Assembly (NCBI GenBank): GCA_020073345.1
Contig: JAIQFI010000014.1
Location: forward strand, 1 to 64,000
Reading direction: 5' to 3'
Length of the DNA stretch: 64,000 bases
Origin: Terriglobia bacterium
GTDB taxonomy: Bacteria; Acidobacteriota; Terriglobia; Bryobacterales; Bryobacteraceae
The stretch's first letter is position 1, and every line of letters starts with the position of its first letter. Under the pieces are notes generated by a model. It was not told the origin of the DNA. It searched no databases and was given only the letters and a program-made list of their open reading frames with translations. Positions 22,130-35,016 of the stretch are shown in pieces. Both the position numbers and the translations under genes were made by a program.

Positions 22130-24325
22130 TTATTGGCGCTGCTCGGAAGCCGACCGTGCCAGCTCCAGCGCCCGCGCTCTCACACCCCGCAGGTCGAGCT
22201 TGCCCGTCCCCAGCACAGGCAGCTCATCCACGCGATGGATGTTTTCCAGTTTGGGCAGCCACAGCTTGGGAAGATCGGTCTTCGAGAGACGGTGCCAGAG
22301 TTCCTCGGGTGTGATCGTAGGATCCGTATAGAGCACGGCTAGGCGCTCGCCCTTGCGTTCGTCGGGCAGGCCGGTCACCACGCAAGGTGAGTCTCCGCAC
22401 GACTTGCTGATTAATTCTTCCACCAGCAAATGCGGAACCATCTCGCCGCCGACTTTGCTGAAACGCGAAATCCGGTCGGTGATTGCCAGGAACCCGTCTT
22501 CATCGACTTTGGCCATGTCGCCGGTAATATACCAGTCGTCCTGGAACACCTGTGCCGTCCGCTCGGGCTGGTTCAGATATCCCAGCATCCGGTTGGGACC
22601 CTTCACCAGCAGCATGCCCTCCTGGCCGGGTGGGAGCAGTTCCCTCGTCTCCGGGTCCACGATTCGTACGGCCACTCCCGGAATCGGCAGTCCTACCGTA
22701 CCGTGTTTCGTGCCGATCTGGACCTCCTTGCCCTCCCGAAAGTCCGGCGTGTTCACCGCCACCACCGGAGACATTTCAGTCATGCCGTAGCCTTCCAGCA
22801 AATCGATGCCGAAGGTCTCTTCGAACTCCTTGCGCAGCGGCTCGCGAAGTTTTTCCGCGCCCACCACCACAAAGCGCAGCGAGGCGAACTGTTCCCGGGT
22901 GCACTTGCGCATGTACGTTCCGCAAAACGTGGGTGTGGACAGCAGGAAGGTGCCTTTGTATTTGTGGACCAATTCTCCAATAACTTTTGCGTCCGTGGGG
23001 TTGGGATGATAGACCACTCCGCCGCCGGTGAACAGCGGCAGCCAGATCGTCGCCATGAAGCCGAACGAGTGAAACAGCGGCAGCACTCCGATGATGCGGT
23101 CGCGCTGGTCGAGCGAGAAGAGCTGCAGCACCGCGTCGACGTTGTTCGCCAGATTGAAGTGCGAAAGCATGATGCCTTTCGGTACGCCGGTACTGCCGCT
23201 CGAGAAGATCACCGTGGCCAGGCCGTCGGGGTCGCCTTTGGGTGTGAGCCAGGACGCCGGCGCCACCCGGGCTTTCACAAGTGCCCAGAACTTTGCGGCT
23301 TTGCCAATCGAAGCGAGAATATCTTCGAGATAGACCGAGCCCTCCGGAGCTTCAAGCTTGGCCTTAGCCAGGAAGACCTTGGAAGTGATGACGGTCCGGA
23401 TTTCGCACTGGTCCGCCGCATAGACCATCGATTCCTTCCCGCCGGTAAAGTTCAGGTTCACGGGCACTCTTCCGGCCAGCGAGACGCCCAGGTTCGCCAG
23501 CGCTCCGCCCACGGTAGCGGGCAGTAGCAAGCCGATCATCCTCTGAGAGTCCGCCCTTCGGCGGACCTCTGCCGCGAGCAGCAACGCTGCAGTGAGCACG
23601 CGGCCGTAAGTCAGCTCGCGGCCGGTGGAATCGGCCATGGCGAACTTGCCCCAGTGGCGGCGGGCCAGCCGCACAAAGCGCCCAGGCAGCGTCGCACCCG
23701 GTTCCCGGGTCAGTTCGGCGGCCTCGCTTCCCAGTTCCTGGACCGCCTGCCGGGCGGCCAAAGCAGTGGCGGGCGAGGGCAGAGGCGTGCCGAAACAAAC
23801 CGTAACCGGATAGGGCCAACGCCGCGGGCTCTTCCCAAAAAACTGCCCGCCCGCGAAACTGAAGATGCTGCCCCACACGCGGTCCAGATGAACTGGGATC
23901 ACGGGAACGTCCAGCCCCTCGATGATCTTCTCCATCCCACGCTTGAAAGGCAGCAGGTTGCCGGTGCGAGTGACCGATCCTTCGGCAAAGATGCAGATGA
24001 CGTGCCCGGCTTCCAGCTCCTTTCGTGCGGATTGGATCGCGGCAGTCATCGCGCGCGGTCCGGTCAGATCGACAGGAATGGTACGCAGCGCGCGGAGCAG
24101 CCCGCGGAAAGCCCAATGCTCGTAGTAAGGGCGCCAGATCATGAAGCGCACGTGGCGGTGCCGCGCGGCCCATCCGACCAGGAATCCGTCCATCAGGGAG
24201 ACGTGATTGGATACCAGCAGAGTGCCGCCTTGCGACGGCACATGTTCAGCGCCCACCACCCGGACGCGATACAAGATCGCGATCAGGCATCGGACGGCCA
24301 TGCGCACCAGGAACAGCGGGATCAC
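22130..24325 (-). CDS. Aas-like acyltransferase / acyl-ACP synthetase fusion
   Basis: A 731-residue two-domain enzyme. Residues 1-210 are a PlsC-type acyltransferase with an N-terminal membrane segment, NHVSLMDG (HX4D) and FAEGSVTR. The rest is an AMP-forming ligase with FSSGSTGVPKGIMLSH, YGMTEMSP, the WYITGDMAKVDEDGFL block and the late catalytic lysine in GTGKLDLRG. Such proteins re-acylate lysophospholipids with activated fatty acids at the membrane; E. coli Aas is the model and has this order, though without a third MFS domain here. The stop is one base from the end of the convergent ADOP gene. Confidence 0.9.
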   Translation of the reverse strand: MIPLFLVRMAVRCLIAILYRVRVVGAEHVPSQGGTLLVSNHVSLMDGFLVGWAARHRHVRFMIWRPYYEHWAFRGLLRALRTIPVDLTGPRAMTAAIQSARKELEAGHVICIFAEGSVTRTGNLLPFKRGMEKIIEGLDVPVIPVHLDRVWGSIFSFAGGQFFGKSPRRWPYPVTVCFGTPLPSPATALAARQAVQELGSEAAELTREPGATLPGRFVRLARRHWGKFAMADSTGRELTYGRVLTAALLLAAEVRRRADSQRMIGLLLPATVGGALANLGVSLAGRVPVNLNFTGGKESMVYAADQCEIRTVITSKVFLAKAKLEAPEGSVYLEDILASIGKAAKFWALVKARVAPASWLTPKGDPDGLATVIFSSGSTGVPKGIMLSHFNLANNVDAVLQLFSLDQRDRIIGVLPLFHSFGFMATIWLPLFTGGGVVYHPNPTDAKVIGELVHKYKGTFLLSTPTFCGTYMRKCTREQFASLRFVVVGAEKLREPLRKEFEETFGIDLLEGYGMTEMSPVVAVNTPDFREGKEVQIGTKHGTVGLPIPGVAVRIVDPETRELLPPGQEGMLLVKGPNRMLGYLNQPERTAQVFQDDWYITGDMAKVDEDGFLAITDRISRFSKVGGEMVPHLLVEELISKSCGDSPCVVTGLPDERKGERLAVLYTDPTITPEELWHRLSKTDLPKLWLPKLENIHRVDELPVLGTGKLDLRGVRARALELARSASEQRQ

Positions 24326-25274: not shown

Positions 25275-26123
25275 CTAAATCGCGCAGCGGGCCAAAATCC
25301 AGATCTTCTCCCAGGCGGGCACGCGGACTCGCTCGCGGAGCACCTCGTAACCGGAATTCGAGATGCGTTCGAGCAGGCGCGAGTAAATCCCGATCAGGGC
25401 CTTGAGCGACGCGCGGCTTCCGCTGTGGACCATGTCCATCAGCGGCTCGGAATCCCGATAGTAGGCTCGCGCGCGCTCGGCTTCGAACTCCAGCAGTTGG
25501 CGTAAGCCGGGTGATAGTGCGTCCCCGGACAACTCCGTTGTCTTTACTCCGAACCGAGCCAAGTCTTCTGCGGGTAAATAGACGCGGCCGTGTTCGGCGT
25601 CCTCGCGCACGTCCCGAAGGATATTGGTGAGCTGAAACGCCACGCCGCATCGCTCGGCCAAGCGGAGAGCCTGGGGATCGTCGAAGCCGAAAATGTGAAT
25701 GATGGTCAGCCCCACCACGCTGGCGACGTGATAGCAATAGTCGTACAGCTCCTGAAACGTCTGGATGTGACGGACCTGGAGATCCGAGCTGACGCCGCGG
25801 ATCATGGCTTGGAAATATTCGTGCGGGATGCGGTAGCGCGCGACCGCATCACAGAACGCCGGCCACAGCGCGTGTTGGGGAGAGTGTTCGGGGGCGCTGC
25901 CCCCCAGCGCGGCATCGAGATCCGCCTGCCAGCGTGCGATGGCGCCCGCGCGGTCGCTGACGCCCTCCGCGTCACTTAGGTCGTCGCAATAGCGCATGAA
26001 TGCGTAAATCGCGCACATGGCCTGGCGCTGCGGCCGGGAGAGCAGCAGGAAGGAGTAATAGAAGTTCTTGGCCTGGGTGCGCGCCACGCGCTCGCAGAAG
26101 GCGTAGGACTCCTCGAGCCGCAT
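25275..26123 (-). CDS. hpnD: presqualene diphosphate synthase HpnD
   Basis: HpnD condenses two farnesyl diphosphates to presqualene diphosphate, the first squalene step of the hopanoid pathway. The 282-residue protein has the first Asp-rich motif DDLSD at 47-51 and the second as NILRDVREDAEHGRVYLP. The ATG at 26123 gives the family N-terminus; the frame is open further upstream but runs into hpnC. It lies 7 bp downstream of hpnC and is the last gene of the hopanoid operon. HpnD and HpnC are paralogues; this one is called HpnD from its FYYSFLLLSRPQRQAMCAIY segment and position. Confidence 0.9.
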   Translation of the reverse strand: MRLEESYAFCERVARTQAKNFYYSFLLLSRPQRQAMCAIYAFMRYCDDLSDAEGVSDRAGAIARWQADLDAALGGSAPEHSPQHALWPAFCDAVARYRIPHEYFQAMIRGVSSDLQVRHIQTFQELYDYCYHVASVVGLTIIHIFGFDDPQALRLAERCGVAFQLTNILRDVREDAEHGRVYLPAEDLARFGVKTTELSGDALSPGLRQLLEFEAERARAYYRDSEPLMDMVHSGSRASLKALIGIYSRLLERISNSGYEVLRERVRVPAWEKIWILARCAI

Positions 26124-26130
26124 GGCTTTT

Positions 26131-27015
26131 CTAAGCGGCCCGCGAGGCCGGACGCGAAAATGCCCGCCGTGTGAGTGCGCCCAGCAGCAGTCCCACGCGC
26201 TCGACTTTCGAGATCGCGGGCCTGGACCTGAGGACATCGTAATCCTGGCGCTCGATCTTTTCCAGAACCCGCAGGCCGCCCCGGCTGAACAACTCCAGGT
26301 CGATAGCCAGGCGCCGGTCGACGGAATCCGCCAGTGGAAGCCCTTGGAGGAAAAGGTCGCGCGTGAGATTCACGGCCTCCTGCATGGCCGCGCGAAAGCG
26401 CCCATCGAACTGGCGCGCGAACAGCGCCTCCAGCGGATAGCCATGAGCCTCCAGCAAATCCAGAGGCAAATAGACCCGGTCCTTTTCGAGATCGACCGTG
26501 ACGTCCTGCCAGAAATTCGCCAGCTGCAACGCCGTGCAGGTTGCGTCAGAGAGCGCCTGGCGCTCCGAGTCGCGATATCCGCACAGCCCCAGCACCAGCC
26601 GCCCTACCGGATTCGCGGAATAACGGCAGTACTGGGACAGCTCGTCGAAGTTGCGGTAGCGCGTGACGGTCTGGTCTTGCTCAAAGGCACTGATCAGGTC
26701 TTCGAACAACGTGGCGGGCAGGGAGAATTGGCGAACGGTGGCTCCCAGCGCCACGAAAACGGGATGCCGGGCCTGGCCCGTGCACATAGCCTGCAGCTCG
26801 CTGCGCCACCAGGCCAGCAATCGAAGGCCTTCCGCCGTGTCGCCGGTCTCGTCTCCCAGATCGTCCGCCCAGCGGCAGAACGAATAGACGTTGTAGAAAT
26901 CCTGATGCAGGCGCTTGGGCAGCAGCAGGCTCACCACGTGAAAATTTTCGTAGTGATGCGTCGCCAGCCAGCGCGTGTAGGCTCGCGATTCTTCAGGCGA
27001 CCAGGCGCGCTCCAT
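26131..27015 (-). CDS. hpnC: hydroxysqualene synthase HpnC
   Basis: HpnC turns presqualene diphosphate into hydroxysqualene. The 294-residue protein has DDLGDE at 51-56 and the second motif as NFWQDVTVDLEKDRVYLP, the NFWQDV form being typical of HpnC. The N-terminal HYENFHVVSLLLPKRLH also matches that family. It lies between the dehydrogenase pair (56 bp upstream) and hpnD (7 bp downstream). The third enzyme of this route, the FAD-dependent HpnE, is not next to it. Confidence 0.92.
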   Translation of the reverse strand: MERAWSPEESRAYTRWLATHHYENFHVVSLLLPKRLHQDFYNVYSFCRWADDLGDETGDTAEGLRLLAWWRSELQAMCTGQARHPVFVALGATVRQFSLPATLFEDLISAFEQDQTVTRYRNFDELSQYCRYSANPVGRLVLGLCGYRDSERQALSDATCTALQLANFWQDVTVDLEKDRVYLPLDLLEAHGYPLEALFARQFDGRFRAAMQEAVNLTRDLFLQGLPLADSVDRRLAIDLELFSRGGLRVLEKIERQDYDVLRSRPAISKVERVGLLLGALTRRAFSRPASRAA

Positions 27016-27071: not shown

Positions 27072-28124
27072 CTACGGGATGATGGCGGTCTTGAGGTGGC
27101 CGTTGTGGCTCATCAGATGCTGCATGACTTCCAGCAGGTTCGAGAGCGGCTCGACGCGATTCACGAAATCGCGGGCGGTCACGCGGCCCCGGCTGATGAT
27201 GTCCAGGGCTTGCTGGATCAGGGCCGGCGTGTGATGGAAGCTGGCTTTGAGCGTCAGCTCGGAATAATGCAGCAGGCCGGCATCCACCGGGACCTCGGTT
27301 CCTTCCGGACAGCCCCCGAAGAAGTTCACCACGCCTCCGCGGCGCAGCAGCTTGACGGCCAGATTCCAGACCTCGGGCAGCCCGACCGCTTCGATAACGA
27401 TATCCGCGCCTCGCCCTCCGGTCAGCTTATGAACGGGGGTCACGACGTCGGAGCCTTCCTCGTTCAGCACCACTTCGTCCGCGCCCATTCCGGTGGCACG
27501 GTCGAGTTGCGAACGCCGGCGTCCGATGGCGATCACTCGCGCGCTATAGACCGCCTTGGCCAGGCGCACGAACATCATGCCGATGGGGCCCAATCCGATC
27601 ACTGCGATGGTATCGCCAGGCTTGACACCGCTCTCCTCCAGGCCGCGAATCACGCATGCCAGAGGTTCCACCAGCGCGGCATCCTGATAACTGACGTGCG
27701 CCGGGAGCTCGTGCATGTTCTTGGCCACGATCCGCTCCGGGATACGGATGAACTCGGCGTAGGCTCCGTTGTTGAACAACAGGTCCTCACACAGGTTTTC
27801 CTGACCGCGCTGGCAATAGTAACAGGCGCCGCAAGGGGCCGAGTTCGCGGCCACCACGCGCTGCCCCACGCGGAATCCCGTGACATCGCTTCCCACCGCC
27901 GCCACGTCTCCGGCTAATTCATGTCCGAATAGGGCGGGCGGCCGGATCATCTTCGCGTGATAGCCCCGGCGGAACACTTTGACGTCGGTCCCGCACGTCA
28001 GCGCCGCGCGGACGCGTACCAGTACATCTCCCCGGCCCAGCTTGGGAACGTCAACCCGTTCAATGCGAAGCCGCTCCTTGCCGTACAGTACGGCGGCGCT
28101 CATCCGCTGCATCTCTGGACTCAT
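27072..28124 (-). CDS. zinc-dependent medium-chain dehydrogenase, hopanoid operon
   Basis: A 350-residue MDR-family oxidoreductase of the polyol/threonine dehydrogenase type. The catalytic zinc site uses the Cys in ALTCGTD, the GHE pair in FGHELAG and a later Glu; the structural zinc site is CGACYYCQRGQENLC. The NAD(P) site is VIGLGPIG. Its ATG overlaps the stop of the upstream dehydrogenase (ATGA). It lies inside the hopanoid operon between hpnG and hpnC, so a role in processing the hopanoid side chain is likely, by analogy with sugar-aldehyde/polyol chemistry. That role is inference. Confidence 0.88.
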   Translation of the reverse strand: MSPEMQRMSAAVLYGKERLRIERVDVPKLGRGDVLVRVRAALTCGTDVKVFRRGYHAKMIRPPALFGHELAGDVAAVGSDVTGFRVGQRVVAANSAPCGACYYCQRGQENLCEDLLFNNGAYAEFIRIPERIVAKNMHELPAHVSYQDAALVEPLACVIRGLEESGVKPGDTIAVIGLGPIGMMFVRLAKAVYSARVIAIGRRRSQLDRATGMGADEVVLNEEGSDVVTPVHKLTGGRGADIVIEAVGLPEVWNLAVKLLRRGGVVNFFGGCPEGTEVPVDAGLLHYSELTLKASFHHTPALIQQALDIISRGRVTARDFVNRVEPLSNLLEVMQHLMSHNGHLKTAIIP

Positions 28125-29254
28125 TTGTTTGGGTGGACTACTACCTTTAACGATACCTCATCCGGATGCAAAGCGCGCTCAATGCCCCTATGAATATCAT
28201 TTAATGGAACCCGATGAGTGATCAGTTCTTCCACGGCCAGAGCCCCGCTGAAAACCAGGTCTGCGGACTCCTTTTGGAGGTCCACGGAAGCGCTATAGGA
28301 CCCGAAGAGGGCGCGCTCCCCCACGCACACGTCCGCGCCCGACACTTCAATGCGCTCCTGGTGCGAGGTTTGGGCAAATAGCAGGATTCGCGCGCCCGGC
28401 CGCGAGCAAGCCACGGCCTGCTGGACGATCCCAGGGGCCGAAGCCGCCACGATGACCAGATCGGCGCCACGGCCACCGGTCATGCTCCTGACCCGGCCAT
28501 CCAGGTTTTCGTCGCGCGGGTTAAATGCCTCCTCGACACCGAAACTCAGCGCCAGTCCGCGGCGGCTGGTCATGGTGTCGGTGACGATCACACGCGCGCG
28601 GGTCCGCACGGCCATCATGGTGAAGATTAGCCCGATGGGGCCCTGTCCCAGCACCGCGACCACATCTCCGGGCTGCGGATCGATCTGCTTGAATCCCTTG
28701 AGGCACGTGTTCACCGGCTCGACAAAACACGCCTGATCGAAGGTCACGCCATCCGGAATTGCCTCGACGCCGCGTTCCACGATCCAATCCATGACACGCA
28801 CGTACTGCGCGAAGCCGCCCCCGGCGGGTTCAAATCCCGCCGTCACGCCGACTTGCTTGTACACCGGGCATTGGGCAAACAACTTGCGCCGGCAATAGAA
28901 GCATTCGCTGCACGGAATGTGGTGAAACACCACCACCCGGTCGCCGGGACGGAAGCGCCGGACGCCGGATCCCACCGCGGCCACCACGCCCGCGGTTTCG
29001 TGGCCGTAAACCCGGGGCGGCGCCAGCAGGTCATACGCGATCTTCTTCAGATCCGTGTGGCAGATACCACAGGTTTCCACGCGGACTAATATTTCCCCCG
29101 CGCCGATCTCTGGGACGGGAATGGCTTCCACCTCGACGCGTCCGGCGCCGCGATACACAGCGGCTTGCATGGTCGCTGCTTCTGGCAGCGTTGATGCTGC
29201 CTCAGGCCTCGTCACCACCGGATTCTCAGCGACGCTAATTTTCGCAGTTGGCAA
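28121..29254 (-). CDS. zinc-dependent medium-chain dehydrogenase, hopanoid operon, TTG start
   Basis: A second MDR oxidoreductase, 377 residues. The catalytic zinc ligands lie in VETCGICHTD and YGHETAG, the structural site is CSECFYCRRKLFAQC, and the nucleotide site is VLGQGPIG. It is only distantly similar to its downstream neighbour, so the pair is not a recent tandem copy. The start is taken as TTG 29254 because AGGAG lies 6 bases upstream; this adds a 28-residue leader before the ATG at 29170, where family similarity begins. The TTG start overlaps the end of hpnG by 20 bases, so translation is coupled. Confidence 0.86.
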   Translation of the reverse strand: MPTAKISVAENPVVTRPEAASTLPEAATMQAAVYRGAGRVEVEAIPVPEIGAGEILVRVETCGICHTDLKKIAYDLLAPPRVYGHETAGVVAAVGSGVRRFRPGDRVVVFHHIPCSECFYCRRKLFAQCPVYKQVGVTAGFEPAGGGFAQYVRVMDWIVERGVEAIPDGVTFDQACFVEPVNTCLKGFKQIDPQPGDVVAVLGQGPIGLIFTMMAVRTRARVIVTDTMTSRRGLALSFGVEEAFNPRDENLDGRVRSMTGGRGADLVIVAASAPGIVQQAVACSRPGARILLFAQTSHQERIEVSGADVCVGERALFGSYSASVDLQKESADLVFSGALAVEELITHRVPLNDIHRGIERALHPDEVSLKVVVHPNK

Positions 29255-29900
29255 GAAACTCTCCTAACCGTTCCGCGGCCCGGCGGCAATCCCGATCCAG
29301 GCGCATCAGCCTGGGCAACACAGTGAAGGGACGCCCCAGGGCTGCCAGCGCAATGCGCGTTCGTTCGAACCGCCCATCCGCATCGCGATACCGATTAAAG
29401 TCCAGCGGCAGATCCTCCCTCGCGGCGTCGGACACCACGCGGACGCAGCCAAACGGCAGCGCCCACTCCTGCGCCTTTTGAGCGACTGCGGCTGATTCCA
29501 TCTCGACCACAGCCGCGCCTGTGGCCGCCCGCAAGTCCCGCTTTTCCCGAGCCGTGAACGCGACTCGGTCTACTGATACCACGTCGCCACGCACAAACGA
29601 CGCTCCTAACCCTTTTGGAACTTCACCCGATACGACGATATCACCAATCCGTAGCGCCGGGTCAAGGGCTCCGCAGAAGCCGACACTCAGGATCCGGTCC
29701 ACGTCCGGTCTCCGCCCTAGCGCGCGCTCCACCAGCCTCGGTCCGGGGCCGTTGGCGATCAAAAACCAGCGGCTGTTTTTCCACTCGGCCTCGCGTGAAA
29801 ATGCCGCGCCGGGCCATTTTAAAGGGCGAACTTCACCCACGCGCTTCAAGATTCCTTCGAACTCGCGCGCTTCTGCCGCAACCATGAGCCAGGTGATCAC
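29235..29900 (-). CDS. hpnG: adenosylhopane nucleosidase/phosphorylase HpnG
   Basis: HpnG removes adenine from adenosylhopane to give the ribosyl-type side chain. The 221-residue protein is a nucleoside-phosphorylase fold: SVGFCGALDPALRIGDIVV near residue 75 and the family VVEMESAAVAQKA near residue 140, with the catalytic Asp in VRVVSDAA. The start is GTG 29900, two bases after the hpnA stop, giving the first strand MITWLMVAAEAREF; ATG 29885 is the alternative. The frame is open far upstream, but that part overlaps hpnA and does not look like protein. Confidence 0.85.
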   Translation of the reverse strand: MITWLMVAAEAREFEGILKRVGEVRPLKWPGAAFSREAEWKNSRWFLIANGPGPRLVERALGRRPDVDRILSVGFCGALDPALRIGDIVVSGEVPKGLGASFVRGDVVSVDRVAFTAREKRDLRAATGAAVVEMESAAVAQKAQEWALPFGCVRVVSDAAREDLPLDFNRYRDADGRFERTRIALAALGRPFTVLPRLMRLDRDCRRAAERLGEFLANCEN

Positions 29901-29902
29901 CG

Positions 29903-30883
29903 TCAGCAGTATCCGTTCTCCTGAAACCAGACTACAGCGCGACGCAAAGCGTCTGCCGCTGGACCTGGGGAATACCCTAGCTCCCGCGCAGCCTTGTCGT
30001 GACGCACCCACATCTTCTTTCGCGACATTCGAACGGCGTCCAGAGGCGCTCGGGGCTCTTTCCCGGTGATCTCCGCCCAAGCTGTGGATGCGACTCCCGC
30101 GGCGTAGGCAACCGCGTAGGGAATCTGCACGCTGGGCGCTTTTCGCTCCAGAATTCCTGCCAGCGCCTCCAGAATCTGCTGGAGCGTCAGGTTCTCCGAA
30201 CCCAGGATGTAGCGCTCTCCCGGCACACCGCGCTCGCACGCGGCAAGATGCCCGCAGGCTACGTCCCGCACGTCTACTACATTCAAGCCCGTATCGACGT
30301 AGGCCGGGATCGCCCCGCGCACGAAATCGACGATGATCTTGCCGGTGGGTGTGGGCTTGAAGTCGTGGTCGCCCACCGGCGCGGTGGGGTTTACGATCAC
30401 TACGGGAAAGCCGCTTTCCGCAAATTCCATCGCTACCTGCTCGGCCAGGAACTTCGAGCGCTTGTAGGGACCCTGCATATCACTTAGAAACGCCTCACTA
30501 CGCTCGTCTCCAATGCCGTCAGGAGTGTTCACGCCGATGCAGCCCACCGTGCTGGTGTAAACGAACCGCTCGACGCCTGCGCGCCGGGAGGCATCGAGCA
30601 TGGCCCGGGTGCCGTCGACATTCGACCGGTACATCTCCTCGGGCTCGCGCGTCCACAGCCGATAGTCCGCTGCGACGTGGAAGACTGTCTCACAGCCCTC
30701 GACAGCGCGCTCGAGCGAAGCAGGATCGCGCAGGTCACCTTGGACAGGCTGGACTTCGGGCAGCTCTCGGAGTTTTGCGGGATCGCGCGCCAGGGCGCGT
30801 ACCTTAAGGCTGCGTTCGAGTAAGGCTCGGGCGACGTGCCACCCGACGAAGCCGGTGGCTCCGGTGACGAGCGTGGGCTTCAC
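29903..30883 (-). CDS. hpnA: hopanoid-associated NAD-dependent epimerase HpnA
   Basis: A 326-residue extended short-chain dehydrogenase. The Rossmann motif GATGFVGWHVA is at the N-terminus and the catalytic YxxxK in YKRSKFLAE; the VNPTAPVGDHDFKPTPTGK segment is characteristic of HpnA. HpnA is a regular member of hopanoid clusters, described as a sugar epimerase, with an unsettled reaction. The start is GTG 30883, 7 bases after the hpnH stop. It lies between hpnH and hpnG in the operon. Confidence 0.92.
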   Translation of the reverse strand: MKPTLVTGATGFVGWHVARALLERSLKVRALARDPAKLRELPEVQPVQGDLRDPASLERAVEGCETVFHVAADYRLWTREPEEMYRSNVDGTRAMLDASRRAGVERFVYTSTVGCIGVNTPDGIGDERSEAFLSDMQGPYKRSKFLAEQVAMEFAESGFPVVIVNPTAPVGDHDFKPTPTGKIIVDFVRGAIPAYVDTGLNVVDVRDVACGHLAACERGVPGERYILGSENLTLQQILEALAGILERKAPSVQIPYAVAYAAGVASTAWAEITGKEPRAPLDAVRMSRKKMWVRHDKAARELGYSPGPAADALRRAVVWFQENGYC

Positions 30884-30890
30884 GAAAGTT

Positions 30891-32006
30891 TCAGCCCAGC
30901 AGCCAGCTCAGGGTCTTGAAGGGATCACTGAGCTTGGCGTTGATGCCGTAAGCCGAGGAAGGCTCATAGCCGCAGTGCACCATGCACTGATCGCAGCGCG
31001 GGTCATTCCCCGAGCCGTAATTCTCCCACGGGGTCTTGGTCATGAGATCTTCGAAGGTCTCATGATGCGCGTCGGTGATCAGATAGCACGGGCCTTTCCA
31101 GCCCTTGACGTTGTAGGTCGGGTTGCCCCAAGCGGTGCAGGGAAGATCGCGATCGCCCTTGAGGAAGTCCATGTACACCGGCGACGAGACCAGCGGGAAA
31201 CGTTTCGCGATTTTGTCGATATCCTTGAACTTCTCGTAGATGTCCTCGCGCGTCATGAAGATTTCCTGGTCGTTCACCGAGGAATACCCGTACGCCGGCG
31301 AAATCGTGTGCCCGTCTACCTTGAACTGTGCCAGGAACGTGTACAGCTCTTCGATCTCGTTCATATCGGTTTCGCGATAAACGGTGGTGTTGGTGAACAC
31401 CCGGAATCCGTTTTCCTTGGCGATACGAATCCCCTCGACAGCGGCCTTGAACACGCCCGTGCGCTCCACCGCCAGATCGTGATTCTTCTCCATGCCGTCC
31501 AGGTGAACGTTCAGGACCAGCCCGGCATGCGGCGTGAACTCTTTGAGCCGCTTGCCGATGAACATGCCGTTAGTGCACAGCTGAATATACTTGCCGCGCT
31601 TCAGGATTTCCTGGCAGAGCTGAGGCAGCTCCGGATAGAGAAACGGCTCACCGCCGCAGATCGAGACCATCGGAGCGCCGCATTCATCGACGGCCGTCAG
31701 GCACTGTTCCAAAGTAAGTCGCGAGCTGATGGAGGTTTCATACTCCCGAATGCGCCCGCAGCCGGTGCAGGTGAGATTGCAGGCGTGCAGCGGCTCCAGC
31801 ATCATCACCAGCGGAAAACGCTTGCTCAACATCGGATGCGGCTTGCGATCCGCGCGAGCAGACGGAATCTGCGCGTGCACGATGCGGAAGGGGTTCTTGG
31901 CATCCTCGGTATGGCCCAGGTTCTTCTGCCACTCGGGGCGCGGCCGCAGCTTGTTCTTGGCGATGTAGGTCGCCATGCTGGCCGCCTGGGTAATGGGAAA
32001 TCTCAT
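30891..32006 (-). CDS. hpnH: adenosylhopane synthase HpnH (radical SAM)
   Basis: HpnH couples a 5'-deoxyadenosyl group to diploptene to make adenosylhopane, the first C35 hopanoid. The 371-residue protein has the radical-SAM cluster as CNLTCTGC (Cys76, 80, 83), the GGEPFLYPEL motif, and C-terminal cysteines in CDQCMVHCGYEPS. The ATG at 32006 overlaps the shc stop (ATGA), and AGGAG lies about 10 bases upstream. The frame is open for another 440 bases upstream, but that part is antisense-like shadow inside shc. Confidence 0.96.
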   Translation of the reverse strand: MRFPITQAASMATYIAKNKLRPRPEWQKNLGHTEDAKNPFRIVHAQIPSARADRKPHPMLSKRFPLVMMLEPLHACNLTCTGCGRIREYETSISSRLTLEQCLTAVDECGAPMVSICGGEPFLYPELPQLCQEILKRGKYIQLCTNGMFIGKRLKEFTPHAGLVLNVHLDGMEKNHDLAVERTGVFKAAVEGIRIAKENGFRVFTNTTVYRETDMNEIEELYTFLAQFKVDGHTISPAYGYSSVNDQEIFMTREDIYEKFKDIDKIAKRFPLVSSPVYMDFLKGDRDLPCTAWGNPTYNVKGWKGPCYLITDAHHETFEDLMTKTPWENYGSGNDPRCDQCMVHCGYEPSSAYGINAKLSDPFKTLSWLLG

Positions 32007-33934
32007 GAGTGGGTTGCTCCTCTTGCTTTCCGGTAGGCTGCCAGCGCCAGAACCGGGAAGGAATGCCGGTACAGATGATATTGCAGATAGAAAACGCCGG
32101 GGAATCCGGTGCCGGTGGACAAATCCTCGTCCCAGCCGCCGTCGCTCTGCTGGGTTTCGACCAGATACTCGATGCCCTTGTGGAGGCTGCTGCTGGTGGT
32201 GTCGCCTCCGGCAATCAGCCCCAGGACCGCCCAGGCCGTCTGCGAGGGTGTGCTGTGGTCGGCCGTGTAGGTTCCGTTGTTGTAGCTGGCGCAGCTCTCG
32301 CCCCAGCCGCCATCGGCGTTCTGGATGGAACGCAACCATTCGCCGGCGCGCAGGATATAAGCTTCCCGGTCGCTCTCGCCGGAGGCCTGCAGTCCGCGCA
32401 GGGCCAAATAAGTGCCGTAGATATAATCGACACCCCAGCGCCCGTACCAACTGCCATCGGATTCTTGCGCCTTTTTAAGATACGCCACGCCGCGCCGCAC
32501 GGCCTCCTGGCTATGCGGAACGCCGCAGGCCGCGAGGGCCTCCAGCACGCGTCCGGTGATATCCGGACAGGTGGGATCGAGCATCGCGTTATGATCCGCG
32601 AAGGGCACGCTGCTTAGAAAATTCCAGTTATTGTCGACGTCGAACGCCGCCCAGCCGCCATCCGAGCCTTGCATCGCCAGAAGCCAGTCGATGGCGCGCT
32701 TGCGGGCTGCCTGCTGCGCTTCCGGATCGGACGCGGTGGATTGCGAAAGGGCCAGGAGAACCTGGGCAGTGTCGTCGATATCGGGATACCACTCGTTGGC
32801 GAACTCGAAATACCAGCCCGAGGGCTCCACGTTCGGCCGCTTTACGCTCCAATCGCCTTTTTGGCGGACTTCCTTCGAAAGCAGCCAGTCGGCTGCGGGC
32901 GTTAGAGCACGTCCCGGCACGCATCCCGATTCCCCCAAAACATGCACCGCGATGGCCGTGTCCCACACCGGCGAATAGCAGGGCTGAAAGAAGAATCCGC
33001 GATGATCGTCGATCATCAGGTTCATGAATTGGCGCGTCGCTTCCTGCACGTCGGGATGATCCGGCGGATATCCGAGCAGGTCCAAAGCCATCACGACGTA
33101 CATCATCGAAGGGTAAATGGCTCCCAGCCCATCCGAGTGGCGCGTCCGCGCGAGAATCCATTGCTCGGCGCGGCGGATCGCTCGCGTCCGCAGACTCCGC
33201 GAACCGTGCCGCTCCCACAATTTCAGCAGCCGGTCCGCCACGAAGAAAAAATTGCCCCAGCTGAGGATCTTCTCACGATCCACAAAGGCCAGCGGGACGC
33301 CCGGCACAAACAGTTCTTCGACGGTGAATCCCGCGGGCACCGGCCGGCGCGGATTCATGGAGTGCAGGATCGAGAGCGGGGTGACGATCGCGCGCGTCCA
33401 AGAAGACATTTCGTAAATCAGGTTGCCCGCGAGGTTCAGCTCGGGAGGAATCGAGGGCGTGTGCTCGCGCGGATACAGTCCGAACAGGCTGAGGTTGATT
33501 TTGACGTAGCTGTTGGCCGCCTGCAGGCCGCCCAGAGCCAGAATGCGCTCCCTTAAACGAGCCAGACTGGCATCGCCGGTGTCGATTCCCGCCACCTTCA
33601 GCGCGACATACGCCTTGATGCTGGCGCTGACTTCAGAGGGCCCTTTTTCATAGATGCTAAAACCGCCATCCGGCAACTGGCGGGCGAGAATGGAGCGTAC
33701 GGCCTTGTTGATAAGCCCGCGGGTCGGCGGATTCCAGACTCCATCTGGTTGGGGTGGATGACGCCACAGCTCCAGCAGAATGAAATCGGACTCGAGCGTG
33801 GTGTCCGCAGTGAGCTCGCCGCACCAGTATCCTTCACCGGCCCGGCGGCTGAGGAGGTACTCGGCGGCGCGGCCCAACGTCGCGGACGACGTTGGCAGCA
33901 GGGCGTCCGCGATTTGCAGACTGGGGCTGCTCAT
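32003..33934 (-). CDS. shc: squalene-hopene cyclase
   Basis: Shc cyclises squalene to hopene at the membrane. The 643-residue protein has the catalytic DIDDTA at about 385-390, and several QW motifs (QESDGSW, QNADGGW, QQSDGGW), with the usual GWGES and GTGFPGVFYLQYHLYRH-type C-terminal signatures. The length is normal. The ATG at 33934 overlaps the ispH stop (ATGA), so the cyclase is translationally tied to the last enzyme of isoprenoid precursor synthesis. The frame is open another 66 codons upstream inside ispH; those are not used. Confidence 0.97.
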   Translation of the reverse strand: MSSPSLQIADALLPTSSATLGRAAEYLLSRRAGEGYWCGELTADTTLESDFILLELWRHPPQPDGVWNPPTRGLINKAVRSILARQLPDGGFSIYEKGPSEVSASIKAYVALKVAGIDTGDASLARLRERILALGGLQAANSYVKINLSLFGLYPREHTPSIPPELNLAGNLIYEMSSWTRAIVTPLSILHSMNPRRPVPAGFTVEELFVPGVPLAFVDREKILSWGNFFFVADRLLKLWERHGSRSLRTRAIRRAEQWILARTRHSDGLGAIYPSMMYVVMALDLLGYPPDHPDVQEATRQFMNLMIDDHRGFFFQPCYSPVWDTAIAVHVLGESGCVPGRALTPAADWLLSKEVRQKGDWSVKRPNVEPSGWYFEFANEWYPDIDDTAQVLLALSQSTASDPEAQQAARKRAIDWLLAMQGSDGGWAAFDVDNNWNFLSSVPFADHNAMLDPTCPDITGRVLEALAACGVPHSQEAVRRGVAYLKKAQESDGSWYGRWGVDYIYGTYLALRGLQASGESDREAYILRAGEWLRSIQNADGGWGESCASYNNGTYTADHSTPSQTAWAVLGLIAGGDTTSSSLHKGIEYLVETQQSDGGWDEDLSTGTGFPGVFYLQYHLYRHSFPVLALAAYRKARGATHS

Positions 33935-34914
33935 ACCCGTGCAACGGTTTGGATTTGCACCGTGCGCGTCAGCTCCGCAGGCAGGTTGAAGCGCACGTCC
34001 TCTTCTTTGACTTCCATCTCTTCCAGCTGGGCGAAACCACGTTGCTGGAGAAAGTCGACCAGTTGCTGCACCAGATTTTCGGGCGCTGATGCCCCGGCCG
34101 TGAGCGCCACGGTTTGAACATTTTCCAGCCACTCACGCCGAACCTCGGTCAGATCGTCCACCAGGTATGCGGGCACGCCCATTTTTTCGCAAACTTCGAC
34201 CAGGCGGCGCGAATTTGAGCTGTTCTGTGAACCGACTACCAGAAGCACCTCGCACAGCGGAACTACAGCTTTCACGGCGACTTGGCGGTTTTCCGTGGCG
34301 TAGCAGATGTCCTGCGCCGCCGGCCCCTGAATCTTGGGAAACTTCTCTTTCAGGCGCTGCACGATGTCGCGGGTTTCATCCAGGCTCAGGGTGGTCTGGG
34401 TGATGAAGGAAACACGCTCCGGATGGGCGACTTCGAGGCGGTCCACGTCTTCTACCGTCGAAACCAGCGCGGTCGATTCGGGAGCCTCGCCCAGCGTGCC
34501 GATCACTTCGTCGTGATCCTTGTGGCCGATCAGAACGATGGTGAAGCCCTTCTGCGCGAACTTCACCGCCTCCAGGTGTACTTTAGTCACCAGAGGACAA
34601 GTGGCGTCAATCACTTTGAGCTTTCGCTGGAGTGCCTGGGTCCGCACTTCGGGCGACACCCCATGCGCACTGAAGATGACTCGCGCGCCCGCGGGCACTT
34701 CATCCAGCTCTTCCACGAAGATGGCCCCTAACGCCCGAAGCTCCTCAACCACGTGCCGGTTGTGAACGATTTCCTTCCGCACGTAGATGGGAGCCCCATA
34801 CATGTTCAGAGCGATCTTCACGACGTCGATCGCGCGGACCACTCCGGCGCAGAAGCCTCGTGGCCGCAACAAGATAATCTTCTTCCCCGCTGCGGACGAA
34901 GGGGTGGAGGACAT
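33931..34914 (-). CDS. ispH: 4-hydroxy-3-methylbut-2-enyl diphosphate reductase
   Basis: IspH makes IPP and DMAPP from HMBPP with an iron-sulfur cluster. All three cluster cysteines are present: Cys22 in RGFCAGV, Cys106 in DATCPLV and Cys204 in DICYATENRQ. The substrate-binding HNRHVVEEL, SAHGV and SQNSSNSRRL motifs are intact. The ATG at 34914 is chosen over the ATG at 34941 because a perfect TATAAT lies between them, 6 bases upstream of 34914. It is the first gene of the hopanoid operon, which places C5 precursor supply under the same control as hopene synthesis. Confidence 0.94.
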   Translation of the reverse strand: MSSTPSSAAGKKIILLRPRGFCAGVVRAIDVVKIALNMYGAPIYVRKEIVHNRHVVEELRALGAIFVEELDEVPAGARVIFSAHGVSPEVRTQALQRKLKVIDATCPLVTKVHLEAVKFAQKGFTIVLIGHKDHDEVIGTLGEAPESTALVSTVEDVDRLEVAHPERVSFITQTTLSLDETRDIVQRLKEKFPKIQGPAAQDICYATENRQVAVKAVVPLCEVLLVVGSQNSSNSRRLVEVCEKMGVPAYLVDDLTEVRREWLENVQTVALTAGASAPENLVQQLVDFLQQRGFAQLEEMEVKEEDVRFNLPAELTRTVQIQTVARV

Positions 34915-34920
34915 AGCCCG

Positions 34921-34926
34921 ATTATA
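34921..34926 (-). promoter_or_regulatory. -10 box of the ispH-hopanoid operon, possibly leaderless
   Basis: TATAAT on the minus strand ends 6 bases before the ispH ATG at 34914. A start site at normal distance would fall on or next to that A, giving a leaderless mRNA. No good TTGACA-like -35 is present at 16-18 bases. Confidence 0.45.
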
Positions 34927-35016
34927 ACAACTCGGCTTCAACGGGCGAGCATGGCATTTGGGTTAACAACAATTAATCAACGTCCGGCCGGTTGATTCGA
35001 TCTTGCTGGAATACGG

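Follow-up and report, generated by a model that had tools for sequence, protein, structure and literature searches.

A conserved pair of zinc dehydrogenases in acidobacterial hopanoid clusters as a candidate, lineage-restricted side-chain redox module

Bacteriohopanetetrol (BHT)-type lipids are a main source of fossil hopanes. The stretch analysed here (the window: 64,000 nucleotides, positions 1 to 64,000 of contig JAIQFI010000014.1 in the Terriglobia bacterium assembly GCA_020073345.1, contig 45 in a genome of 6.2 Mb) carries on its minus strand a hopanoid operon in the order ispH-shc-hpnH-hpnA-hpnG-ADH2-ADH1-hpnC-hpnD (Table 1), in which the genes that we call ADH2 and ADH1 encode two members of the medium-chain dehydrogenase/reductase (MDR) superfamily. 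Together with HpnA, the sole other dehydrogenase-like protein in the cluster, they make up three dehydrogenase-like candidates. An earlier note on this DNA had put the two forward as candidates for the reductases that would convert the ribosyl side chain left by HpnG into that of BHT.

The note's description of the genes themselves as two distinct zinc-containing MDR dehydrogenases placed after hpnG holds well. Both are open reading frames, they share 33% identity, and each has ADH_N and ADH_zinc_N domains above the Pfam cut-off, the residues of a catalytic zinc site (Cys, GHE and the Glu of an EP motif) and a structural-zinc pattern C-x2-C-x2-C-x7-C; the two zinc sites are invariant in the closest aligned rows, 32 for ADH1 and 33 for ADH2, counts that include the window's own proteins and exclude 8 and 2 more distant rows, respectively. 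The 20-base overlap of hpnG and ADH2 hinges on the TTG start of ADH2, and given that start it is confirmed, the TTG, the preceding TAGGAG and the overlap being identical in the window and in two congeners (G187 and G289; 3/3 examined). The claimed ATGA coupling of ADH2 to ADH1 fares less evenly, being present in the window and in G187 and missing from G289 (2/3). HpnG and HpnD of the window score below their NCBIfam curated cut-offs.

Table 1. Genes and features of the hopanoid operon, in window coordinates
Feature	Positions	Strand	Description
ADH1	27072..28124	-	zinc MDR dehydrogenase; 350 residues; ADH_N and ADH_zinc_N; motif VIAIGRRR at end of strand 2, NADP(H)-type
ADH2	28121..29254	-	zinc MDR dehydrogenase; 377 residues; ADH_N and ADH_zinc_N; TTG start; motif VIVTD, NAD(H)-type; subfamily insert GVTAGFEPAGGG
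hpnG end/ADH2 start overlap, 20 bases	29235..29254	-	TAGGAG upstream of TTG
hpnG, adenosylhopane nucleosidase/phosphorylase	29235..29900	-	TIGR03468 128.7 bits, under curated cut-off 187.1; open frame reaches 30239, probable GTG start at 29900
hpnA, extended short-chain dehydrogenase/reductase (SDR), 'hopanoid-associated sugar epimerase'	29903..30883	-	TIGR03466 456.5 bits, above cut-off
hpnH, radical SAM adenosylhopane synthase	30891..32006	-	TIGR03470 412.8 bits, above cut-off; start MRFPITQ, within open frame 30891-32450
shc, squalene-hopene cyclase (SHC)	32003..33934	-	TIGR01507 633.3 bits, above cut-off; start inferred within open frame 32003-34132
ispH	33931..34941	-	TIGR00216 331.4 bits, above cut-off
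hpnC, squalene synthase	26131..27015	-	TIGR03464 352.4 bits, above cut-off
hpnD, presqualene diphosphate synthase	25275..26123	-	TIGR03465 266.8 bits, slightly below cut-off 278.6; start inferred, open frame to 26237

The two genes travel together, and they travel with hopanoid genes. Across 297 genomes sampled from Acidobacteriota, ADH2 was matched in 51 at an E-value of 1e-60, of which 46 score at least 344 bits and are termed strong while five score at most 214, the line between the two (344 versus 214) having been drawn after the gap was seen; ADH1 was matched in 69 genomes at 1e-60, strong being the 48 with at least 367 bits, and HpnH, counted at 1e-90 only, in 76 of the 297, all above the family cut-off. 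Every one of the 46 genomes with a strong ADH2 holds a strong ADH1, the two further ADH1 genomes being G132 and G273. ADH1 lies directly after ADH2 in 27 of the 46, and in the other 19 both genes are retained with ADH1 at a separate site, where hpnC comes next in 19/19. Going upstream from ADH2, the first reference gene reached is hpnG in 32 genomes and hpnA in 12 (all of family f28), with none in G066 and G221, and at 44/46 the linkage of ADH2 to hopanoid genes is not chance. HpnH is found in 42 of the 46 (Fisher p 1.7e-25, in a test that ignores kinship); the remaining four are G221 and three genomes that are 84-93% complete and carry the pair between hpnA and hpnD (G113, G211, G282).

That these genes are linked to hopanoid genes is already known from PMC5462960 (2017), which in its passages on Acidobacteriota describes a cluster C of hpnA-hpnG-ug1 and a cluster A of ug2-hpnC-hpnD-hpnE; according to that paper, ug2 often bears the annotation of a Zn-binding alcohol dehydrogenase, with a length of about 350 residues, and occurs in all SD1 and SD3 strains and not in Chloracidobacterium thermophilum, a maker of BHT. 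Judged by gene order, ADH2 is probably ug1 and ADH1 probably ug2. The contiguous order of the pair is common to families f1, f50, f28 and part of f2, for which reason its split is probably derived, and the position of ug2 beside hpnC therefore requires no role in squalene synthesis.

A second regularity lies in the nucleotide-binding domains. In MDR enzymes, as a rule, an acidic residue at the end of strand 2 goes with NAD(H) and a non-acidic one with NADP(H). This position is Asp or Glu in 30/30 hpn-linked ADH2 rows and non-acidic in 30/31 hpn-linked ADH1 rows, usually with a Lys or Arg shortly after it (the exception is G037), thereby suggesting that ADH2 uses NAD(H) and ADH1 NADP(H); ADH1 would then be the better reductase candidate than ADH2, the gene that touches hpnG. 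ADH2 also has N-T after the EP zinc ligand and an insert, TAGF...GGG. The insert is missing in 15/15 unlinked sister ADH2 rows from other acidobacterial families; since it is shared by the rows from family f39, Omnitrophota, Planctomycetota (19/19, with letter changes in 6) and cyanobacteria, it marks an ADH2 subfamily and not the hopanoid link.

The reading we prefer, and hold tentatively, is that the pair is a redox module recruited to hopanoid clusters, where it would act on the side chain, preferably in the conversion of ribosylhopane to BHT, as a lineage-restricted solution; such a role agrees with the linkage to hpnG or its cluster found in the acidobacterial survey, and it can only be lineage-restricted because other HpnH-bearing lineages are without the pair. 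The NAD(H)-linked ADH2 and the NADP(H)-linked ADH1 would be the two halves of one module, acting jointly and drawing on opposite nucleotide pools, and an older and wider module would have been taken into hopanoid clusters on separate occasions, once in Acidobacteriota and once in Omnitrophota. Its presumed substrate is the polyol side chain made by HpnH and HpnG: ADH1 would reduce, with NADPH, the open-chain aldehyde of ribosylhopane to BHT, and ADH2 would be its partner, oxidising or recycling. Of this scheme, the genes with their zinc residues, pairing, linkage and nucleotide motifs are observed, and cofactor use, joint action, substrate and direction are inferred.

Several observations weigh against this reading. 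Of the 76 HpnH-positive Acidobacteriota, 34 are without a strong ADH2, and 22 of the 24 examined among these 34 have an HpnG-like match at 1e-15, which in 15 of the 22 shares a contig with hpnH and is no more than 4 kb from it; these are counts from a weak detection, as none of 30 genomes, the source genome included, reaches the TIGR03468 cut-off and 1e-15 also matches 4/14 controls. G221 has the pair and no HpnH (1e-90), HpnG (1e-15) or SHC (1e-30), G066, of the same family, keeps the pair apart from its hopanoid genes, and ADH1 adjoins hpnC, not hpnG, once the pair splits. None of eight named HpnH-positive planctomycetes matches ADH2 at 1e-40, and no hpn gene was detected in the fetched 5-18 kb around planctomycete ADH2, bar two weak HpnH matches of 50-52 bits, in a search that covered the surroundings of these loci only and used BLAST with acidobacterial references, which divergent genes could escape, on stretches many of which are cut by contig ends. 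In a 115-row tree the ADH2 clade (43 rows) is internally unresolved, hpn-linked and planctomycete ADH2 not being separated. Finally, neither protein reaches the cut-off of an NCBIfam family of known activity, the best equivalog scores against their curated cut-offs being 181.5/450 bits for IolM, 169.7/458 for threonine 3-dehydrogenase (Tdh) and 117.1/550 for galactitol-1-P dehydrogenase.

The distribution contradicts a general role of the pair as ribosylhopane reductase. Absence from relatives was the test that the earlier note had set for its proposal and, run against a general role, it turns on the 34 genomes just described; what stands of the proposal is that these are conserved genes with tight hpn linkage across acidobacterial families and in Omnitrophota, and hence candidates, but not general reductases. 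Inspection by eye of 16 acidobacterial neighbourhoods without a strong ADH2, in search of a replacement beside hpnG, showed neither an MDR gene nor, HpnA apart, a likely aldehyde reductase. The two of the 24 genomes without an HpnG match are G007 and G273, in which hpnH is near a contig edge; a joint loss of hpnG and ADH2 was considered for them and dropped, since both contigs end shortly past hpnH or hpnA and the co-loss is thus no evidence. Three of the 34 genomes (G096, G123 and G165, each 3.7 Mb in two contigs; HpnG was examined in G096 alone of the three) carry a relative of ADH1 at 45-47% identity, away from hpn genes at the loci examined, L046, L200 and L201. One further genome of the hpnH-hpnA-hpnG type without a strong ADH2, G278, encodes a different MDR protein two genes upstream of shc on the same strand (L058 3066-4310, plus strand), which is 25% identical to ADH1, has GHV in place of GHE, and has ADH_N, ADH_zinc_N and a glucose-dehydrogenase C-terminal domain above cut-off.

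Another candidate role, that of ADH1 as a stand-in for HpnE suggested by its place before hpnC, was rejected for the source genome (G000), as ADH1 need not replace an HpnE that sits elsewhere, apart from the hopanoid operon (C13:32945-34210, 445 bits). No HpnE was found at 1e-20 in 5 of 21 genomes (G007, G203, G037, G132 and G119), and in G203 and G037, which carry the pair, ADH1 may have such a role. Downstream of the operon in the window, on the same strand and with one opposite open reading frame intervening, lies a gene for an acyltransferase and acyl-ACP/CoA ligase protein (22130-24325, minus strand), which matches positions 410-1145 of the 1147 of PRK08633 and so is missing the N-terminal part.

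In an HpnH scan of named genomes from several phyla, limited to the best 80 loci of a longer list and with many of them cut by contig ends, ADH2 and ADH1 lie nearby only in L125 and L136, both acidobacterial; the MDR relatives near HpnH in L114 and L121 are weak, at 78 and 115 bits. A whole-genome search of 42 of the 80 records returned eight with ADH2 of at least 359 bits, namely seven of the eight acidobacterial ones (G338, of the Bryobacteraceae, is the one without) and one from Omnitrophota. A 43% ADH2 relative (314-325 bits) is present in 6/10 cyanobacteria, with no reference hpn gene detected within 17-18 kb around it by the same BLAST approach. In Dulcicalothrix and Calothrix (L229 8581-9627, plus strand; L230 8674-9720, minus strand) a lone ADH2-like gene has the TAGF insert and no adjoining ADH1, and it is divergent from a glycosyltransferase gene (Glyco_transf_28 in L229, assigned by eye in L230).

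Omnitrophota offer a second instance of hopanoid linkage. ADH2 occurs at 1e-70 in 3/237 genomes of this phylum, all of them within the 7/237 that have HpnH (Fisher p 1.6e-5, again ignoring kinship); in G320 the pair is divergent from hpnC-hpnD-hpnE and in G451 from hpnC, with shc-hpnH 6 kb beyond on the same stretch, and the surroundings of the pair in G403 yielded no hpn gene. In Planctomycetota ADH2 occurs in 20/392 genomes at 1e-70, the lowest score, 263.8 bits in G851, coming from a fragment at a contig end, and ADH1 adjoins it in 18 of the 20, the remaining two being cut by contig ends. The planctomycete ADH2 is acidic at the cofactor position in 19/19 rows and ADH1 non-acidic in 13/18, rows that do not include the G851 fragment; as far as this motif tells, the preference for NADP is looser there. 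At seven planctomycete loci (L266, L270, L271, L273, L274, L275 and L277) a third MDR gene lies on the opposite strand, and these same seven and the acidobacterial L203 have a similar 3-hydroxyacyl-CoA dehydrogenase gene near the pair (by Pfam for L203 only).

An old two-gene module that moved into hopanoid clusters is the history that seems to fit the trees best. In a first tree of 101 rows, from which L114 and L008 were left out, the ADH1 clade, in which the hpn-linked rows group with f39 and one G132 gene, is supported at 100/94 and the ADH2 clade at 99/96, and the pairs of families f32, f77, f60, f66, f47, f45 and f25 branch in parallel outside both clades, some on long branches. The second tree is the 115-row one, made by a quick method after Planctomycetota had been added and after removal of the window's paralogs, of a single more distant MDR and of 11 redundant genomes. 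The hpn-linked acidobacterial ADH1 form one clade in both (98/96 with 101 rows, 96 with 115).

One alternative is that the pair is a generic alcohol/aldehyde redox module with no hopanoid substrate, whose place in the operon would serve only co-expression or the supply of membrane. Planctomycetota, where no hpn neighbours were found, have the pair in the same subfamily and with the same insert, in G066 the neighbours of the pair are QueF and proline dehydrogenase genes and in G221 similar ones, and the ADH1 ortholog of G132, a genome without SHC at 1e-30, stands by methionine-salvage-like genes. The pairs of G221 and of the planctomycetes suggest that the module can function without hopanoids, and by itself the pair is no hopanoid marker. 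Such a purely generic role would, however, leave unaccounted for that hpnG or hpnA is the next gene upstream of ADH2 in 44/46, that a split ADH1 stays with hpnC in 19/19, and that the hopanoid link recurs in Omnitrophota, and on balance we regard it as somewhat unlikely. As to the neighbours themselves, in f39 the ADH2-ADH1 pair follows the QueF and proline dehydrogenase genes (L070 5108-8617, by Pfam; L069 6056-9276, by eye), and in G132 the ADH1 ortholog (52%; L067 7240-8289, minus strand) is divergent from Aldolase_II, ARD and HAD genes; the sugar of methionine salvage is a 5-substituted ribose, like that of ribosylhopane. The non-hopanoid neighbours, few of them named by Pfam and the others by eye, vary by lineage, and no single pathway emerged from them.

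A further alternative concerns the chemistry. An EP zinc ligand is typical of polyol, ketose and glucose dehydrogenases, whose substrates are mostly secondary alcohols, ketoses and hemiacetals; secondary alcohols and hemiacetals are therefore at least as likely substrates of the pair, and the earlier note's phrase that MDR enzymes catalyse 'just this sort of' aldehyde/alcohol step was too strong. The pair might act on the side chain and not for BHT: one enzyme would use NAD to oxidise an alcohol or the ribosyl hemiacetal and the other NADPH to reduce, as redox epimerisation or towards oxidised side chains. Its opposite nucleotide motifs, its retention even when unlinked and the 34R and 34S BHT isomers that PMC12583986 (2025) mentions in bacteria would all suit this role; set against it, cofactor use is read from motifs alone, PMC5462960 reports no such hopanoid in what it says of acidobacterial strains, and no paper on ribonyl hopanoids was found in the open-licence literature, so that we consider it unlikely. 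An elaboration in which ADH2 oxidises one side-chain carbon with NAD+ and ADH1 reduces it with NADPH, either from the opposite face or at the aldehyde, the borrowed module making BHT and setting its stereochemistry and other phyla using unrelated enzymes, is offered as speculation that we think improbable. That HpnA reduces ribosylhopane, as proposed in PMC5462960, with the MDR pair as accessory, agrees with hpnA adjoining hpnG in many HpnH-positive Acidobacteriota without ADH2 but is very unlikely; the same paper cites evidence that Burkholderia cenocepacia can make BHT without hpnA and that some BHT producers have no such gene.

The survey also cautions that BHT formation may not rest on one conserved enzyme; ADH1 is the predicted NADPH user of the pair, and the two genes belong together in any test. 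Ribosylhopane reduction was reportedly obtained by Bodlenner et al. in 2015 with a cell-free system of Methylobacterium organophilum; this is the very reaction proposed here, with the difference that its enzyme is, according to PMC12583986, not established. The earlier note's statement that the BHT-forming reductase is unassigned is borne out in both papers, the passages of PMC5462960 on these clusters giving the functions of ug1 and ug2 and the enzyme of this step as unknown and suggesting hpnA, and the Alphaproteobacteria survey in PMC12583986 naming, beside hpn clusters, no obvious candidate but hpnA, hpnB, hpnL and hpnM.

For the pairing, its reach and a reductase role of these genes, no paper was found in the open-licence literature. 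The hpnA-hpnG-ug1 and ug2-hpnC-hpnD neighbourhoods of PMC5462960 match the window and the 46-genome survey, hpnE being elsewhere in the window's genome; in the account given there, however, ug1 is assigned no identity, ug1 and ug2 are not treated as a pair and ug2 is tied to the squalene genes, whereas here the two are contiguous in 27/46. Among characterised enzymes, the closest comparison is with MDR proteins of the polyol dehydrogenase type, such as sorbitol and threonine dehydrogenases and the NADP(H)-dependent ketose reductase 1e3j. ADH1 and ADH2 differ from these in scoring far under all NCBIfam equivalog cut-offs, in the insert of ADH2 and in the hydrophobic lipid substrate proposed for them, while they share with them the domains, the two zinc sites and the EP ligand, and the solved structures closest to them in sequence are 4cpd, 4ej6 and threonine dehydrogenases.

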